This document shows, piece by piece, positions 4,216 through 32,800 of a stretch of DNA of 64,000 nt. The DNA comes from Physcomitrium patens (taxonomy: Eukaryota; Streptophyta; Bryopsida; Funariales; Funariaceae), in NCBI RefSeq assembly GCF_000002425.4, contig NC_037258.1, forward strand, positions 957,719 through 1,021,718, written 5' to 3'. The stretch's first letter is position 1. Every line of letters starts with the position of its first letter. Under the pieces are notes generated by a model. The model searched no databases. It was not told the DNA's origin and saw only the letters and a list, made by a program, of their open reading frames with translations. Both the position numbers and the translations under genes were made by a program.

Positions 4216-5699
4216 TCACACATGGTGCAGCTTGATCCAAGAGTGGAGCGGGGGACCCAAAGCGGTGAATCCCGGCACCGAAACATACAGGTCGATCACC
4301 ACTTTCCACGCCGCTTGAGTCGGGTGAATGCCGTCGAAGATTACCGACTTCGCGACATCTGCACATACCTTGTACAGAGGGCGTCCCTCGCTGTCTGTAT
4401 GGCCGCAATTGAGCACGTAGGAATCGTTAATCCCCGTGCAACAAGGTGTCAAGGCATCTTCGAAACCTGCAGCAATAGTCAGCAAATAAGGTCAATCAGG
4501 CACAGCGCTTCGGAGATACTTCCCTGCATGGACTACCCCTCCCCTCCTTGGAACTGCAATCTCTTGCTTGCCCAGCTACTGTCCAGCGTACCGTATTGGG
4601 ATCCGTGGTGGAAGATGTGTTCGAAAGCCTTGGTTTGGTTCACGATCACGAAATGCGCCCCTCGTAGCTGCCGGTTGAGCAGCTTGACTCGCTGTTCCAG
4701 CAGTAAATTGTGATTCAAGGTTTCGAACGCCAGCGAAGCGTTGCGGCTGCAGGAGGTGTATTTGGACTGCACTGTGATGTAGGGAGAGCATGACATTGAT
4801 GCCAGGTTTGCGACGATGATGTTGCGGAACCCGAGGCTGTGTAGGCGCGCGAGATTGAGTGCGATTCCGTCCACCACCGTCGTGACGGTTGTCTTCATCT
4901 CCGTTGCATATTCTGATTCCTTGAAGGTACCATACGCATTGTGAGAACCGTAGTCATTGACTCCGAGGCTCACTAACGACACCGACTTGCCCAGGTGAAG
5001 CTTGGACAGCGCGCCACTCTGCACCAAAGCCTCCATCTGGTCCACCTGGGTGTCAAGCGGAGTGTAGCCAAATGCGTATGTGACCCCGGCTCCGCCTTGG
5101 GCAAAATTTACACCCGCTTTGCTTTCAGAAGCGTTCTGCAATTGCGAGTAAGGGGTTGGGTATGGCACGCCAAAAAGCTCCGCTGGGAGATGGATCAGTT
5201 TGCACAGTACAGATTGTGAGAATGTATCTTGGCACACAGTGTTTTATCACGAAATTACTGCTTATCTAACAATCTTTTGTTACAGTATGTGTTTCACAGG
5301 AGTTGGATAGAGGTTTGATATGTTTTTTTTATTTGATTAGTTCCTAGCTTCGCAGAGAAGCTTGAATTAACATCTCACCGAAGTAATCGGCTTGGTTGCG
5401 GCCGTCGCTGGCTCGGCCACCGGGGTATCCTGGCCATGTCATACCATAGGGTGGCCCCATGTAGCCTCCATTCCCTGTGGTGACAAACGAATCGCCAAAT
5501 GCGTAGAAAGCTTCTGCTGCGTCAACTGGATCTGCACATCCCGTCAACATCGTAATTCCCAAGGCTCAAAGACTGCAGCTCCCGAAACTATAAAACAGTG
5601 TGGCAAAGACGAAGTAATGACCAGCTTACCGAAAGGATTGGAGAACCTCATTAGCACCATAAATAACACCAAACAGCTCTGAATCTTTTTGGTTGACAT
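4216..5699 (-). CDS. GDSL esterase/lipase, secreted (4 exons)
   Basis: Serine hydrolase of the plant GDSL family, expected to cleave ester bonds of lipids or wall acyl groups outside the cell. My exon model on the minus strand is 5699-5630, 5531-5379, 5182-4580 and 4466-4216. All junctions are GT-AG and the phases match, giving 358 aa, typical for the family. Residues 1-23 (start MSTKKIQSCLVLFMVLM) form a hydrophobic signal peptide. Block I is FGDSF with the nucleophile Ser. Block II is GVNFAQGGAGV. Block III is SLGVNDY with the Asn. Block V is DGIHPTQAAW with catalytic Asp and His. The catalytic set is complete, so the enzyme should be active. The physiological substrate cannot be read from the sequence. 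The first start was chosen because it alone supplies a signal peptide and joins in phase. Confidence 0.9.
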
Positions 5700-6935
5700 C
5701 GTGGATTCAATACTCAGGGTCGATTACGACGTGGTGGATGATGTTGTAATCAATTTGGTGATCGCTGCGCCTGCACACAGCAATCATGTCAGCAATCACA
5801 ACTTGGAGTGGATATCTATCACTGCCAATTTATGCATTTCCTTTCGGAAAGACCAGTCTCCCCTCTTTTCAAGCAATCCGTCCCTTTGCCTTGGCGCGCA
5901 CTTCAGCGTTACTAAGTACTCAATTTTCCCACAAAAAAAACGCTAGAGCATATTCCTTTCTCTATTCGCGCATTGCAATGCTGAGCCTTGCGTGTATATA
6001 CATGTGTGTCATTTGAGGACAGTCCTCATGATCTCTTGATGAAAGGGTGCCTGCTTCAGTCAGAAGCTGCCTTTTATTCATCAGATCGGTAGCTGGTCAT
6101 CGCTCAAGCCATTCTCTCGCAGTGATTCATCAGGATTGGATACATTCGATGACTCATTCCGTACCCAGACATACATCAGGTCAATTTCAGAACTCCGACA
6201 TTACCCACGTCGTATTCGAATTCCGCGTCCCACTATCGGGCAGTTTAATTTGTTAACTGACCTGTTGGGCTGCAGTAGGTGCTGTACTTTGCTTATTAAA
6301 ACAACGAAGATGATGTGCTGCCTACATAATGCAAGGCTAACTATATTTCCATGAATCTGGAATTTTTGGTAAAAGCTCTATAGACCACAGATTCTTAGCG
6401 TGCACAAGAAATGTAGTAGATCTATGGACTTACAGGGTGATTCAATCACAACTAGCTGTTTAATGTGGTCCTCGTCTTTATAGGGGAGTGGAGTTATCCT
6501 AGACAGACACTAGCGCTTTTAGGTGTAGAGGCGCCAAATGATTCCGACTCTTGAGCTTGCACATCAGCCACCACAACAGGTGGGCTGCTTCGGTGGTCCA
6601 AGTCCCCAAGAGCTCCGTTTCTGGAGTTGCTTTTGCATCCTCCATGATGGAAACGTAACTGGAGGTGGGGGGGGGTCAACCCCGGCATGTTGACCATGAA
6701 CAGCCCCCTTAATCAAGGGTTTGAATATTCCTCCTAACAACGGGAAAAATAGTGTATAATGTGTTACGAAAGGAGCTGACTGCCAGTGTACCAAATTTAT
6801 GCTTCCTTGACTACCACAATAGCAACCATTACAAGTATTGTATTTCCTTGTATTCCCTCGGATTTTTATTTAATTCACAGGATTGCATGTGCAGATAAAT
6901 GCACAGAGTATGATTGGCTACGTCAGGACTTGCCA
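5700..6935. other. Upstream region of the GDSL gene, no gene recognised
   Basis: Should hold the promoter and 5' UTR of the minus-strand GDSL gene. Open frames at 6047-6354 (+) and 6494-6794 (-) have no recognisable domain and look like chance frames. A G run occurs at 6667-6674. Confidence 0.4.
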
Positions 6936-10740: not shown

Positions 10741-11076
10741 CAAGCCTGCAATTAGCTATCTGGATGAACATCTCCTTAAAGGATGAAAAGGAAAGGACGA
10801 GGCTGAAGTAGAAGGCCGCCACGTTCATCCATGAGCGGGGATGGGGATGAACATGGCGCGGTCATAGGGGCGTTGGCGGGGCTGGGATCGCGGAGCCTCG
10901 CGCGCATCATTGTGTTTTCATGTGCACCGCAATCGATGCTTCAGTAGCACTACCAGTTGTTGCGGCGATGGCCAGTGCTATGGCAGTAGAACTCTCAGCT
11001 TACCCAGCGGAGTGCAGAGCTTAACAACGTTCTACCGTTGCCTGGACCCTGGGCATGTTTTCTATTGATCCCAGCC
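10741..11076 (+). other. GC-rich leader of the IF-2 gene
   Basis: Base composition jumps from AT-rich to GC-rich at about 10800, in step with the following gene. Probably holds its promoter and 5' UTR. The coding frame is open back to 11038, but only on a TTG. Confidence 0.4.
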
Positions 11077-13431
11077 ATGGCCAAGCCTTCTTCGTGGCGC
11101 CGCACCACTTCCCTGGCCAGAGCTCTCGCGGAGTCATCTAGAAGCGATCGGGTTTCAAGCGCGCAACCGTTGCCACAATGCCTCAGCTCGTTGGTAGCGT
11201 ATTCGAAGGATGCTGCTGCTGCTTGCACGTTGCATCGTGACCATGGAGACAATGTCGTCGGGGGCTATACCTGTGAACGTTGTTCAGCAGCGCCGGGTTT
11301 GAGGGACGGGTCCTTCTTTAGGGTTTTGGAAAGGTTTTCGGATTCTTTATCGGGTCGTTTGGGCACGAATGGACCCCGGTGTGGTGTTATAGATTTGGAT
11401 TATCGTCTAGTTGGTGTAGGTTTGGTTGGGAGAGGTATCCCGAGCACAATTCCGGGGGCTGAGTGTGGAACGCGTGCATTTAGGTCATCCGCGATTTCTT
11501 CCGCAAAGGCGAAACTAGGCCCGTCAGGTTCTGTTCAAGGGCACAGATATAAGGGCAAGAAACCGCATGACAAGGGTGAGCAATCGAAAGCTGCCGTAAC
11601 TCCAGTCCAGCAAGAGAAAGAGGATGTTGTTGTCGAAATTTTTGATGGCATGTCTGTTTCGGAACTAGCGGCTCGTGTGAGGCAGTCTGTGGACGCTGTC
11701 AAGACTGTATTGACCGGAATTGGGGAACCTGTTTCGCAAGCCGTGACTGCTGATGCGGCGGAGCTCGTGGCATCAGAGTATGGGATGAGTGTGAAGAAAG
11801 TACTGAATCAGAAAGGGAGCGTTGGCGGAGAGTTTCCGCGATCACCCGTGGTTACAGTTATGGGGCATGTGGATCACGGGAAGACCACCTTATTGGATGC
11901 CCTCCGGCAGACATCTCTGGCGGCGCGGGAGGCTGGAGGTATTACGCAGCATTTGGGAGCATTTGTCGTGGCCATGCCATCGGGCTCTTCCCTTACGTTT
12001 CTTGACACTCCTGGTCATGCTGCTTTCAGTTCTATGCGTGCGCGCGGGACCGCTGTGACGGATATAGTCGTCTTGGTCGTGGCTGCCGATGATGGAGTCA
12101 TGCCGCAGACCCTCGAAGCTATGTCTCTTGCCCAGGAAGCTGGTGTCCCTGTCGTCGTGGCTCTGACTAAATGTGATAGAGTTGAGGCAAACCCTGCCCG
12201 GGTCCGACAACAGCTAGCTTCTCATGGTGTCGAGCTTGAGGATATTGGAGGTGATGTTCAGGTGGTGGAAGTATCTGCGATTACGAAATCGGGACTTGAG
12301 AAGTTGGAAGAGGCACTGCTGCTCCAAGCGGAGTTGATGGAGCTTAAGGCTTCATCCTCTGATGAAGTGCACGCGGTTGTAGTGGAAGCGCGTGTTGATC
12401 GTGGCCGCGGCCCTCTTGCCACGGTCGTTGTACGTTCGGGAAACCTTGTTCCTGGTGCAATTGTTGTTATAGGGACGCAGTGGGGACGAATTCGTGTGCT
12501 GAAAGATATGCTTGGGCGAACAGTTACATCTGCAGGGCCTTCGACACCTGTTGAGATAGATGGTTTGCGGGGTCTTCCAGAAGCTGGGGATTACATTCAG
12601 ATTGTAGCAAGCGAGGAGAGAGCGAGAAAATTGAGTCAGGTTCGGCGGACGAGATTAGAGGAGAAGCGCATGTGGCAGCTGAAGCGACGAGTCGTTGCCG
12701 CCGAAGCTGCCGCTGCCGCTGTTGCAGAGGATGGGGCGGAAGTTGTCGTTCCAGAGAGGCGAGAAATGACCGTAATTGTGAAAGCGGATGTTCAGGGTAC
12801 TGCCGAAGCAGTGAGCCAATCTCTCACTCTCCTCAGTTGTCCTCAGGTTGACGTGAATATAGTGCACTCGGGGGTAGGACCGGTTTCTCAATCTGACATT
12901 GACCTTGCCGCGAGTACCAGAGCTCATATTGTTGGGTTCAATGTGGGCTCTATGGGATCTGCAATTGAGACATCAGCTAGATTAGCTAAAGTCAAGGTTT
13001 TGAAGCACCGTGTTATCTACCATCTGCTGGAGGAAGTAGGGGCCCTCATTGTGGGCATGGCCCCTGGTGTGAAAGAGGATCAAGTAGCAGGTCAGGCTGA
13101 GGTTCTCAGCGTGTTCGAGCTGAAGGGCAAAGGACGCACTGGAAAGGGGGCAACAAGAATTGCTGGATGCCGAGTGTTAGATGGACGCTTAGAAAGGGCA
13201 GCCCGGATCCGAGTGTTGCGCAGTGGGGAGGTTCTGTTTGAAGGTCTCATGCAATCGCTCAAAAGAGAGCAGCAGGATGTGGAAACGGTGGCGAAAGGAG
13301 TGGAGTGTGGTATGATAGTGGAAGAATGGGTCAATTTTCAGGTTGGCGACGTGGTTCAGTGTATCACCGACTTCCGACGGATGCCCAAGTTTGTGTCGTC
13401 CCAGAATGGAGCTGCTCGCATTGAATGTTAA
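11077..13431 (+). CDS. Translation initiation factor IF-2, probably mitochondrial
   Basis: GTPase that brings initiator tRNA to the organellar small ribosomal subunit and promotes subunit joining. I start it at ATG 11077 (context CCAGCCATGG), giving 784 aa in one exon; the longer frame to 11038 has no ATG. The N-terminus (MAKPSSWRRTTSLARALAES) is rich in Arg and Ser without acidic residues at first, as in mitochondrial presequences. An IF2_N-like segment (VEIFDGMSVSELAARV) is near residue 186. The GTP-binding motifs are complete: GHVDHGKTT, GGITQHLGAF, DTPGHA, TKCD and SAITKSGL. The C-terminal part carries KADVQGTAEAV and continues to a normal C-terminus. It is shorter than plastid IF-2, which has a long N-terminal extension, so a mitochondrial role is favoured; plastid targeting is not excluded. 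Confidence 0.92.
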   Translation: MAKPSSWRRTTSLARALAESSRSDRVSSAQPLPQCLSSLVAYSKDAAAACTLHRDHGDNVVGGYTCERCSAAPGLRDGSFFRVLERFSDSLSGRLGTNGPRCGVIDLDYRLVGVGLVGRGIPSTIPGAECGTRAFRSSAISSAKAKLGPSGSVQGHRYKGKKPHDKGEQSKAAVTPVQQEKEDVVVEIFDGMSVSELAARVRQSVDAVKTVLTGIGEPVSQAVTADAAELVASEYGMSVKKVLNQKGSVGGEFPRSPVVTVMGHVDHGKTTLLDALRQTSLAAREAGGITQHLGAFVVAMPSGSSLTFLDTPGHAAFSSMRARGTAVTDIVVLVVAADDGVMPQTLEAMSLAQEAGVPVVVALTKCDRVEANPARVRQQLASHGVELEDIGGDVQVVEVSAITKSGLEKLEEALLLQAELMELKASSSDEVHAVVVEARVDRGRGPLATVVVRSGNLVPGAIVVIGTQWGRIRVLKDMLGRTVTSAGPSTPVEIDGLRGLPEAGDYIQIVASEERARKLSQVRRTRLEEKRMWQLKRRVVAAEAAAAAVAEDGAEVVVPERREMTVIVKADVQGTAEAVSQSLTLLSCPQVDVNIVHSGVGPVSQSDIDLAASTRAHIVGFNVGSMGSAIETSARLAKVKVLKHRVIYHLLEEVGALIVGMAPGVKEDQVAGQAEVLSVFELKGKGRTGKGATRIAGCRVLDGRLERAARIRVLRSGEVLFEGLMQSLKREQQDVETVAKGVECGMIVEEWVNFQVGDVVQCITDFRRMPKFVSSQNGAARIEC

Positions 13432-15240
13432 CCCTTTCACGAGTGTTGGGAATGCATGGCCCTCTTCTCTTGTATTTCTGGATTGAATTGTTACAGAGTT
13501 GGTTCTGGCCTTAACAGATGAGGTTCAGGTATCTGCTCCAAATTTCACGCTAGCTGTGAGCTAGATGGTATATTAACACTTATTAAACAATGAAGTCCTT
13601 AGACATAGGGATGAAACCAATATTTTTAGGAGGCTGCCACTTCAGCACCTTCTCAAATTTTGCACTAGAATTTACAGATATCATGTGACGCTTGACGCTT
13701 GTGAGCAGAGTGGCAAGTGTGCTACGCACATTGTAGTATAATGCTGATAGGAAAGTTCAATCTTTATGTTCTTACAGTGCGCTAGACGCTATGCCTTTTG
13801 ATCCGTGCTGAATGAGAATTGCCTGTAAGATGCTGGCAACACGAACACTTGTCATTTTGTTTGCAACAGGAGCTTCTTCAGTTAAAAGTTGGCACTACGT
13901 TTTGTTGGCGAACTGTCCAATTTTGGTAACCAGCTTGCCCCACTACCAATTGTTGTGTTGTGTTTATTTTCTTTATTTGTTCATTGTTTGATAGTTGAAC
14001 GATCAAGATCATACTAGTGAACAGTGTTTGTTTGGGGGAGTGCATTGCAAATGATGGTATACACTTGATCTCTGAGAAATCAGGTAAGTTGCAATGAAGA
14101 AGCTTTTGGTAGCTGATGCAACTGCACTCCCAAACAAATTTTAGCAGTGTCACGTCTCGGTTGCTTTCGTTCCTTTTAGCAGTTGAGGAGAGTTGGAATA
14201 TCCTTCAATGCTGTGCTGCTGGAAAGGTTTTGGACTTCGGTTTGGTCCATTTGTCTTGTTCAGTGCTGGCACTTTTGGTCAACATGGATGTTTGCCGACT
14301 GATTCTAGGATTTATTATCCAATTCGTTGTCTTAACTTAAGGATGCAACTGGCAAGGGAGTGTTGCTGGATCAGACAATTTTTCTCAATATAAGTATGAG
14401 AATTAATCCATCTTTCCTTGCAAAATGCATTGTCGATCGTAAAGTAGAGAGTGGGTCGTGGAAGTGGCATTTCAAGCTGGACTCAAGCAAGACTTCTTCG
14501 ACCTGCGCTTTAACCACATTGCACAAGGCTGGTCAGCTGTGGATGGCAAACGTGAGATTACGAAGAGGGCTGAACCAGTTGGTAACTTTTTCCAGATCAA
14601 GGCAACCTGAGCAATCACACATTACCTTTGGTAACTTCGTCTTTTGTCATGAATGCATGGTACCCAGGCCTCACAACTTCTTCCACCAAGAACACTAGTC
14701 CTCGAAATGAAGGACCGCCGTCCTTTCTTTTTAACTCATGAAACTCGCCGCGTGACGGAGGAATTCGGAATTCAGAATTCGAACAAATAAATGATGCCCG
14801 AGCGACCTGAAGAGTCTGCAGGGCGCCGATCCGATCATGTAGAGTCGACATGTGACGATTCATGTATGGTGGAGTTTACGATGCACTCCCGTCCATGCCA
14901 AGAATACTCGGAACGCACTGGTGTAACGACAGTGGAGATGAGGCACGACGTTGACTCTCTGCATGGCGCCTGCAGAATCGGTTACACCGACTATTTCTGC
15001 GTCTGCTATTGGACATCGAGTCCAAGGACACTTCCCCAGATAAAGGTCCCACTCAGGCAGCGCAGTGAAATTAGGGGAGCATGTAAGGGAATGCAATTTC
15101 ACAGTTAGCACCCCCCCTTACAAACAGTAGAGAGAGAGAGAGTGTGGACATGTGTGGACGGAGGTAGAAAGTGGGATTTACGGCAAGATAATTAGATGCA
15201 TCTAAATTCCTTCTTGTGGGTGTGATTCAGAGTGCAAGAG
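13432..15240. other. 3' flank of IF-2 and spacer
   Basis: Moderate base composition. Contains the 3' UTR of the IF-2 gene, several short domain-less open frames (14116-14698 +, 14615-15111 both strands) and a (GA)n run at about 15129-15141. No gene is assigned. Confidence 0.4.
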
Positions 15241-30585: not shown

Positions 30586-30938
30586 TGAATTTGAATTTGT
30601 TATAATCTATAAGCTTTAAAATCTTCTATAATATTATAATTTATTTATGAGTTTTTTAAGATTTACTAACAAATAAAACTACACCAACTATAAAATTTAG
30701 AATTTGATCATCTTGAATCAATAATTCTCTTTTTAAAAATACACAGTAATATTTTTTTTAAAGGAATTGTAAACTAATTATTAAAATATAAATAATTTTC
30801 AGTTTTATATTTAAAAGTAATAATCAAAATAACATTAATTTAATTTATTTTTAATTATTTAAAATACTCTAGTATTTATATTTTATGTTTTTCTTTTTTT
30901 CTTTTTCTAAAAATAATTAACTTCTTAATTTTGTAAAA
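29201..30938. other. AT-rich spacer
   Basis: Very AT-rich, with (TA)n runs at about 29504-29523 and 30553-30581. No gene is visible. It ends abruptly where the virus-derived segment begins. Confidence 0.6.
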
Positions 30939-31083
30939 AAGAAAGCCCAATAGAGATTCTTATAAACTTGTGGTACAATTCTTTGAGGCTCTATAGTAAA
31001 CTATAGAACGTCTTCAGGAAGATTCATATCGCTTTTAAGATGTTCTACAAGCATCTTAAAAGTACCCCAAATTGGGCTTTCTT
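30939..31083. repeat. Hairpin-rich inverted repeat
   Basis: Outer arms of 13 bp (30939-30951 and 31071-31083, AAGAAAGCCCAAT and its complement) match perfectly. Inside are a perfect 11-bp hairpin (31032-31042 with 31052-31062, 9-base loop) and the small palindromes CTATAG-TAAA-CTATAG and TCTTC-AG-GAAGA. It could be a miniature inverted-repeat element or a viral intergenic hairpin. It lies about 100 bp before the open helicase frame. Confidence 0.75.
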
Positions 31084-31180
31084 GTTGAGAGTTTTCTTGC
31101 AAGATCTACAGAATAGGCCGTGTTGACTCTTCTTTACTGCAAGTCAATAATAAGGGAAGAAATACTGATTCTAAGCATAA

Positions 31181-32131
31181 TCTAGGATTCCATTTGTACC
31201 ACTTGATTACAACTCAGAAGCAACTAATGAGGTTCTTGATCTCTTAGCAAAGGTGTTCCCTAACGAAGACATAAGAAGATACTTTATGAGGTTCATCTCA
31301 TCATGTTTAGAAGGAAGAAATGCGAACAAGATATTTTCTATATGGTCAGGATCTGGAGACAACGGAAAGACTGTCATGGTTTCTCTAGTTGAACGAGCGT
31401 TTGGAGACTATGCAGTGAAGATGCCAACATCATTGCTTATGGGAAAGAGAGTACAATCATCAGCAGCTACTCCCGAGCTAGCAATGCTTAAAGGAAGACT
31501 TATAGCTCTCGTTCAAGAGCCTGATGAAGGTGACAAACTTAACCTTGGTGTTATGAAGGAGCTTACAGGAAATGATAGTCTCTATATTAGAGGATTGTAC
31601 GAAGAAGGAGCTATCATACCTCAGACAGCAAAGTTTGTACTCATTGCCAACAGGATCCTACAGATGAGTACGTTTGATAAAGCAGTGTGGAGTAGAGTTA
31701 GAGTAATGCCATTCGTATCAACGTTTGTTGATAAGATAGAACCATCTCACAATCCTCTTACAACACACTTGAAGGATATTAACTTCTCCAACAAGATTCC
31801 TTTGCTTGCTCCTGTATTCATGAGATTAGTAATAGAAGAGTACAAGCAATATCTAACTTATGGTCTTGAAGAGCCTGACGAAGTTAAGGACTGCACTGAG
31901 ACAATTCGTGTGTCTAATGATATCTTTGGGCAGTTCTTGAGCGCTAATGTTGAGAAGAGCAACAAGAGTATAGTTGCTATAAAGGAGCTGTATGATACCT
32001 ACAAGTACTGGTCAAAGGATATGTTCCCAACAATGAAAGTAAAAGATATATCGTCTCTACGACAATATCTAGTTAGGAACTCGTATACTATAGATGCTGT
32101 AGATCAGATTCAAGGATTATCTTTGATATAG
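31181..32131 (+). pseudogene. NCLDV D5-type SF3 helicase, N-terminally truncated
   Basis: C-terminal helicase part of a giant-virus D5 primase-helicase, a DNA replication protein. The frame is open from 31181, just after a TAA, to the TAG at 32129-32131, about 316 codons. Codons before the first likely start still read as family sequence, so the frame continues a longer ancestral gene. Walker A is GSGDNGKT (31349-31372). Walker B is LIALVQEPD (about 31499-31525). A sensor Asn is in LIANRI, and Arg residues follow in WSRVRVMPF. The D5 C-terminal region follows to a natural-looking end. The primase half is absent; upstream frames are broken. Composition is far less AT-rich than the flanks. It is an endogenous viral remnant; expression is unknown. 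Confidence 0.88.
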
Positions 32132-32139
32132 ATAACAAC

Positions 32140-32155
32140 AAAAAAAGCTTTTTTT
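32140..32155. terminator. A/T palindrome just after the helicase stop
   Basis: Seven A, G, C and seven T form a perfect 16-bp palindrome, 9 bp past the helicase stop codon and between two convergent frames. It resembles a viral transcript-end hairpin. That role is a guess. Confidence 0.35.
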
Positions 32156-32302
32156 TCTGCATACTTATCAGTACTGCGTCTTGTCCAAACAAACTGCACA
32201 GCCTACCGCGATCATGGTGTATGTATAACACTTCTTTCTACCTCAAAGAGAAAGGAGGTGTAGTTGATGTGAAAGCATAAAATGCGCTAGCTATGTCAAA
32301 CA

Positions 32303-32794
32303 CTAAGTACTGGTATCAATAGATAGAGCGTGTCTCCTTAACTTAGTCATCAAAGAAAGCACTTCGACTCTTGATTCAAAAGATGATAATCTCAATCCTC
32401 CTATGCTTGGATACTTCTTTACTTCAAGCTTCTGTTCAGGAAGTCCTCCAAATAGAGACACTATGTACTCTTCAGTAAACACCACCCTTATAATGGACAC
32501 TTCATCACCCTTAACATTAATTCCATACATTACCTCAGGAAGTATGTTATTTGAGAATATGCTATAATTCTGCTGACATGCAGCAATGAGAGCACTAACA
32601 AGTTGTATCTCTCCATTTCTGTATCTTATATCACGTTTGTGTTTGCTTTCTTGCAGTACCCATACTAACTGTTCACCTTTTCTTCCTTCTCTGTCACTAA
32701 AGGTAGAGAACATCTCATCTGCAATTCTCATTCTAAGCATTGATGGCACTATATGAGGCTGAAACTCTTGAGACTTGTGGAAATACTGGTGCAT
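32303..32794 (-). pseudogene. Unrecognised ORF of the virus-derived segment
   Basis: 163 codons, convergent with the helicase frame and sharing its composition. I do not recognise the family. The protein is mixed alpha/beta in appearance, with VWVLQESKHKRDIRYRNGE near the N-terminal third and EVMYGINVKGDEVSIIRVVF in the middle. There are no Cys or His clusters and no membrane segments. Protein-like sequence also lies upstream in another frame (32801-32986 and nearby), so the present ATG may follow a frameshift and the ancestral protein may have been longer. Confidence 0.55.
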
Positions 32795-32800
32795 AGTCCT

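Follow-up and report, generated by a model that had tools for sequence, protein, structure and literature searches.

A young-looking two-gene relic of a giant virus in the genome of the moss Physcomitrium patens

The stretch of DNA analysed here (the window, 64,000 nucleotides of the Physcomitrium patens genome) contains a relic of a giant virus that is real, looks young and belongs to a kind already known. It includes part of a D5-type helicase gene, the reading frame of which is probably still open because the fragment was captured recently, and not because the moss has kept it by selection.

Two convergent gene fragments and their edges

A stop-free frame of 316 codons, followed by a stop codon, lies on the plus strand at 31181..32131 and carries SF3 helicase motifs, as the earlier note on this DNA had described. 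It is what remains of a D5-type SF3 helicase gene, namely the C-terminal two-thirds; the 5' end (the D5_N part) has been lost, and the first in-frame ATG is codon 36. On the same strand, the sequence contains the Walker A motif GSGDNGKT (residues 57-64, 31349..31372), a Walker B-like EPD (residues 113-115, 31517..31525), the asparagine N157 (31649..31651), which we take to be the sensor residue, and an arginine region, R172-R174 (31694..31702). Q112, E113, N157 and R172 are invariant in 13 relatives. The frame keeps 49 of the 51 invariants of these relatives, and the two others (S64T and F110L) are conservative changes present in other moss copies too. G62 of Walker A is replaced by Arg in P0004, P0008 and P0020, which are predicted proteins of other moss copies. 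The SF3 AAA+ core (Walker A, Walker B, sensor and arginine residues) is present in the frame and would be retained in its product, but as the product would lack the D5_N part, it is not expected to act as a replicative helicase.

The D5_N domain has no match better than E 0.9 upstream of 31181. It is found in the moss copy L087, where a D5 gene with D5_N is open for 494 codons (4866-6347, minus strand), and in the relatives P0009 and P0011. Judged by its sequence, the window D5 is a fragment of a gene consisting of D5_N and helicase, not a whole gene. The earlier note held that a primase half is gone, which is probably wrong, as neither the nearest relatives nor the moss copies have a primase part. 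The 19 nearest relatives are 409-626 residues long, although the limits set on protein length in the searches work in favour of short relatives and longer kin may be missed. The primase domain AEP_C962R is found in all four of the long, more distant relatives scanned. The primase parts of these four have no match (E<=1) in the window piece or in any of 12 moss stretches of 10 kb, whereas their D5 parts match all 13. The shortness of the near relatives and the lack of a primase match in the moss stretches suggest that the moss gene was originally a short D5 form, probably of about 490 codons as in L087, of which the window retains the last 316. An assignment of the window D5 to the C962R type was narrowed, as the AEP_C962R domain is absent and the resemblance is limited to the helicase part.

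The second gene, ORF2, runs in the opposite direction. Its frame is open over 32303-32800 of the minus strand, and homology to metagenome and fern proteins identifies 32303..32752 as the C-terminal half of a virus-type gene. ORF2 is 61-68% identical to six metagenome proteins and 39% identical to a protein of Ceratopteris richardii (P0037, 263 aa). Residues 17-165 keep all 47 family invariants, residues 1-16 none of six. The family is predicted to have a PD-(D/E)xK-like fold; a search of the PDB gave no sequence relative of ORF2 (best E 1). The G+C contents of the three codon positions are nearly equal in D5 (0.46/0.35/0.36) and ORF2 (0.46/0.35/0.33), which we count as support for a two-gene viral fragment. 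The same D5-ORF2 order occurs at two divergent places in the moss, L089 and L090. In L089, ORF2 (5795-6712, minus strand) is open for 306 codons. The window copy is thus not the only open virus-type piece in the moss, as the D5 of L087 and the ORF2 of L089 are open too. The recognisable viral core of the window extends, on homology, from 31181 to 32752 (about 1.6 kb), and neither gene has its N-terminal part complete.

The tails of the two convergent genes face each other across an A/T palindrome, AAAAAAAGCTTTTTTT, at 32140..32155. The pattern A6+[GC]0-2T6+ occurs only once in the 64-kb window, at this position, and is found close after the D5 stop in seven of 13 moss copies examined (L060, L063-L066, L074 and L076). 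The RNA fold of the palindrome alone is not significant (z -0.45). The palindrome is predicted to be a viral transcript-end signal, which is a possible reading of it. It is also near this point that the moss copies lose their alignment to the window, none of the 10 long copies aligning beyond 32164. At the other end, the D5 homology begins at 31181/31182: eight of the 10 long copies align from there and none further upstream.

A 95-nt spacer separates the start of the D5 homology from a foldable 150-nt element with a 13-bp terminal inverted repeat, which forms the left edge (30936..31085). The DNA to the left of the element is AT-rich (G+C 0.21), and at the element the G+C content rises to 0.34. 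The fold has a z of -5.6 (176 nt, 200 shuffles) or -7.3 (150 nt, 30 shuffles) and is the strongest among the 150-nt stretches seen, the best of 511 scanned plus-strand windows having -5.6. In Rfam, the element has no match at the gathering score (the sole row is sub-threshold, E 0.44), and two hairpin patterns have no exact match in IMG/VR. Pithovirus-type palindromic repeats are described in a passage of PMC10664404; the proposal that the element is such a repeat was dropped, as its only match in the genome is itself and it is absent from the moss loci fetched. The left neighbour, around 23 kb, is a hemerythrin-domain gene, and a right-hand frame at 33.5-34.1 kb has no Pfam hit. Elsewhere on the plus strand, the window contains an intronless frame of 813 codons for translation initiation factor IF-2 (10990-13431) and a snoR101 C/D-box snoRNA with a score above the Rfam threshold (14056-14120).

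Relatives of the helicase and its copies in the moss

The earlier note had called the helicase NCLDV-type, and the protein search and the phylogeny both bear this out. A search of 5.8 billion proteins (candidates of 174-553 aa) gave 28 hits to the window D5. One is the product of the window frame itself and six are proteins under the name of P. patens, with 79-95% identity; 11 proteins (P0009-P0019) are at 37-43% and 10 others at 24-42%. The nearest relatives, at about 37-43%, come from metagenomes and fungi. When a profile of nine relatives was used for the search, longer proteins and proteins of the fungi Linderina and Coemansia were recovered as well. That the helicase came from a bacterium or a phage is highly improbable. 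PHROG and NCBIfam models of phage and plasmid primases do match the window D5, and so do 802 phage records, but the identity is 25.6-28.2% for the 20 of these that are listed, 23-29% for bacterial relatives in GTDB (25 of 25 loci) and only 24-29% for IMG/VR relatives reached through the alignment A4 (33 of 33 loci). Direct searches of IMG/VR gave no kin to the window D5 frame, to ORF2 or to an 879-aa relative. The best solved relative is the primase-helicase C962R of ASFV, which is about 20% identical to the moss D5 and has a primase domain, a part that the closest kin of the moss D5 do not have.

In a maximum-likelihood phylogeny with 79 rows (65 proteins and frames from 14 of 25 extracted loci, without P0020, P0026, P0028, P0030 and P0079), the moss D5 proteins fall in one clade with support 100. 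They group with P0009-P0017, P0038-P0043 (which include fungal proteins), P0049 and P0054-P0056, and a split with support 94 divides this group from the AEP_C962R proteins, the phages and the bacteria. The phage and bacterial rows cluster together (support 99-100). The AEP_C962R proteins do not form one clade, P0070 being on the phage side with support 74. In both identity and tree, the window D5 is closer to proteins of eukaryote-virus type than to those of phages or bacteria, and an NCLDV-type origin is supported. The D5-like proteins of Coemansia and Linderina (P0040, P0041 and P0043) fall in the same D5 clade as the moss gene, P0040 being 40% identical to the window frame, but they come from other hosts and represent a deeper lineage. 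Giant-virus traces linking moss and fungi have been noted earlier, in a passage of PMC7466625.

The P. patens genome (470 Mb, 101 contigs) has at least 22 matches to D5 at at least 19 places, three of which have two rows each. The earlier note's attribution to a plant genome agrees with this and with the six P. patens-named proteins. There is hardly any probability that the fragment is an assembly contaminant, as it is situated inside a 19.5-Mb contig and the 21 further matches are all on other contigs, many of them with decay of their own. With viral genes in a host chromosome and related copies elsewhere in the genome, the fragment belongs to the endogenous giant-virus elements of P. patens.

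Ten places have a long nucleotide alignment to the window copy, from which they differ by 6.7-14.0%. All ten are broken, nine by one to five in-frame stops and L068 by a one-base length change. L089 and L090 are more distant (76-80% DNA identity). Beyond D5, the fetched copies have several more kilobases of sequence in common, and other virus-like frames adjoin them. A Pfam scan of ten chosen frames near the copies gave, among others, a protein kinase, an AIG1-type GTPase, DUF5757 and DUF2738; two frames had no hit and one was a retrotransposon. On contig C15, L084 (1735-6339) and L085 (572-5177) are inverted copies of each other, 99.6% identical over 4.6 kb; this pair is a recent local duplication after integration.

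Divergence in the virus and decay in the moss

The dN/dS ratios are pairwise Nei-Gojobori values. The nucleotide work covered 10 of the 18 other places; those left out of dN/dS (L070, L073, L074, L075, L076, L078 and two without a locus) are shorter or more divergent. Against the 10 copies, the window frame has dN/dS of 0.08-0.23 (0.135 for the window), with dS of 0.24-0.49 and dN of 0.025-0.077. The differences concentrate at the third position of the codons (in L060, for instance, 13/8/43 over the three positions). Pairs of the copies themselves, all with broken frames, have a median of 0.19 and a range of 0.11-0.57 (44 of 45 pairs, the near-identical pair L065-L067 being excluded), somewhat above the value for the window, as expected when decay is added. 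As neutral decay raises dN and dS about equally, the share of divergence that arose after integration cannot much exceed dN, so that most of it arose in the virus, before integration. The comparison with copies elsewhere in the genome, which the earlier note had proposed, therefore gives a low dN/dS that is a legacy of the virus and no evidence of selection in the moss, as the broken copies are low too. Selection inferred from low dN/dS was set aside for this reason. Of the recent arrival or selection that the earlier note had offered as alternatives, recent arrival is favoured and selection is unsupported.

It is accordingly improbable that the moss retains the shortened helicase by purifying selection as a domesticated gene, for example as an antiviral decoy. 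The open frame, the conservation of the family invariants (both deviations being shared with other moss copies) and the low dN/dS against the copies would fit such a role. The ratio is equally low among the broken copies, however, the unrelated half-gene ORF2 alongside is just as open and intact, and the D5_N part is missing.

Counted only where the other copies are unanimous, the substitutions private to the window copy number six in 950 sites. Four are silent and two replacing, none is C>T or G>A, and none creates a stop. These six changes, together with the open frame of the truncated ORF2, make recency a sufficient explanation. With random substitution at 0.5%, 2% and 4%, simulations without selection (400 runs each) left the D5 frame open in 80%, 40% and 13% of the runs, respectively; when 1% of the C/G sites were deaminated, the figure was 85%. 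The moss neutral rate is about 9.4e-9 per site and year, and if every change is post-integration, the insertion would be some 0.7 to 3 million years old; it would be younger if the changes are viral, as the 4:2 ratio of silent to replacing changes hints. The branch of the window copy in a FastTree tree is 0.029, which is more than the six private changes; if this branch were all post-integration, chance survival of the frame would be less likely, if still conceivable, and this speaks against recency.

An old insertion that mutates slowly, for example because it is unmethylated, is unlikely. It would agree with the length of this branch, with the lack of private C>T or G>A changes and with the loss of both gene ends, which implies some history. 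Against it, there are only six private changes of any kind, and other copies with little C>T excess already have stops. Several moss copies have an excess of C>T and G>A relative to the window in the nucleotide data, and at the amino-acid level 54 of 76 unique differences are C>T or G>A and 10 are opposite. The statement that all other copies are methylation-decayed was narrowed to several, as L060, L062 and L066 carry stops and have no clear C>T excess relative to the window.

On the preferred reading, recent capture, the process can be described as follows. The differences between the moss copies would have arisen mainly while the gene worked in the virus. As even pairs of broken copies have dN/dS of about 0.1-0.2, the captured DNA came from several virus strains or paralogues. 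In the case of the window, the repair of a double-strand break probably brought in a broken piece of viral DNA. After capture, the copies would decay, several of them with the C>T and G>A excess expected for methylated silent DNA; the window copy appears to be without such decay so far.

One virus or several strains

Maumus 2014 and Lang 2018 reportedly described NCLDV insertions of Physcomitrium patens. The known insertions are in the same genome and include the same D5 gene; the window copy, which may already be among those listed, is distinctive as a small piece of two genes in which what is left of either frame is open. A 2017 survey (PMC5294986, Table 1) placed the D5 and the DNA polymerase of P. 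patens in putative Pithoviridae, and the placement ('Pitho') of these two genes is taken from that publication. Methylation is reported to be enriched at the viral genes of P. patens, the V5 annotation having these regions masked (PMC12344493), and the genes are described as silenced, with some loci expressed (PMC12142844). In titles and starts of abstracts, with few subscription papers and the ORF2 family outside the scope, we found no report that uses dN/dS to judge whether P. patens captured such DNA repeatedly. The fragment is ordinary in kind; what is new here is the dN/dS control, together with the palindrome and the family of the second gene.

The most interesting reading left is that strains of a virus were captured repeatedly. 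The moss might contain a series of captures from different strains of one giant-virus group, each strain still replicating at the time, with the window copy as the latest, and we consider the chances of this to be about even. The reading is suggested by the viral purifying selection under which even the broken copies differ and by the retention of the same order, D5 then ORF2, in two divergence classes. The copies could be paralogues of one virus instead of several strains. One large integration of a virus with a D5 gene family, later shuffled, is a possible but rather doubtful alternative, which competes with repeated capture and not with the recency of the window copy. The further kilobases shared by the fetched copies near other virus-like frames, and the L084/L085 pair as proof that local duplication after integration exists, agree with it, and the computed results leave paralogues and strains unseparated. 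The order of the two genes in L089 and L090, despite their distance, is rather what two related virus genomes would give.

To our knowledge, there is no isolate of any giant virus that infects land plants. ORF2 provides a family marker common to moss, fern and metagenomes. The window also illustrates a trap: the low dN/dS of an open relic against its relatives is no proof that the host uses it if those relatives were live viral genes while they diverged. If serial capture is true, contact between a giant virus and the germ line of the moss was recent and is perhaps continuing, and such recent presence would be testable through sites that are empty in some accessions. With strains that were diverging as they were caught, one after another, the moss would then be a dated sampling series of such a virus.
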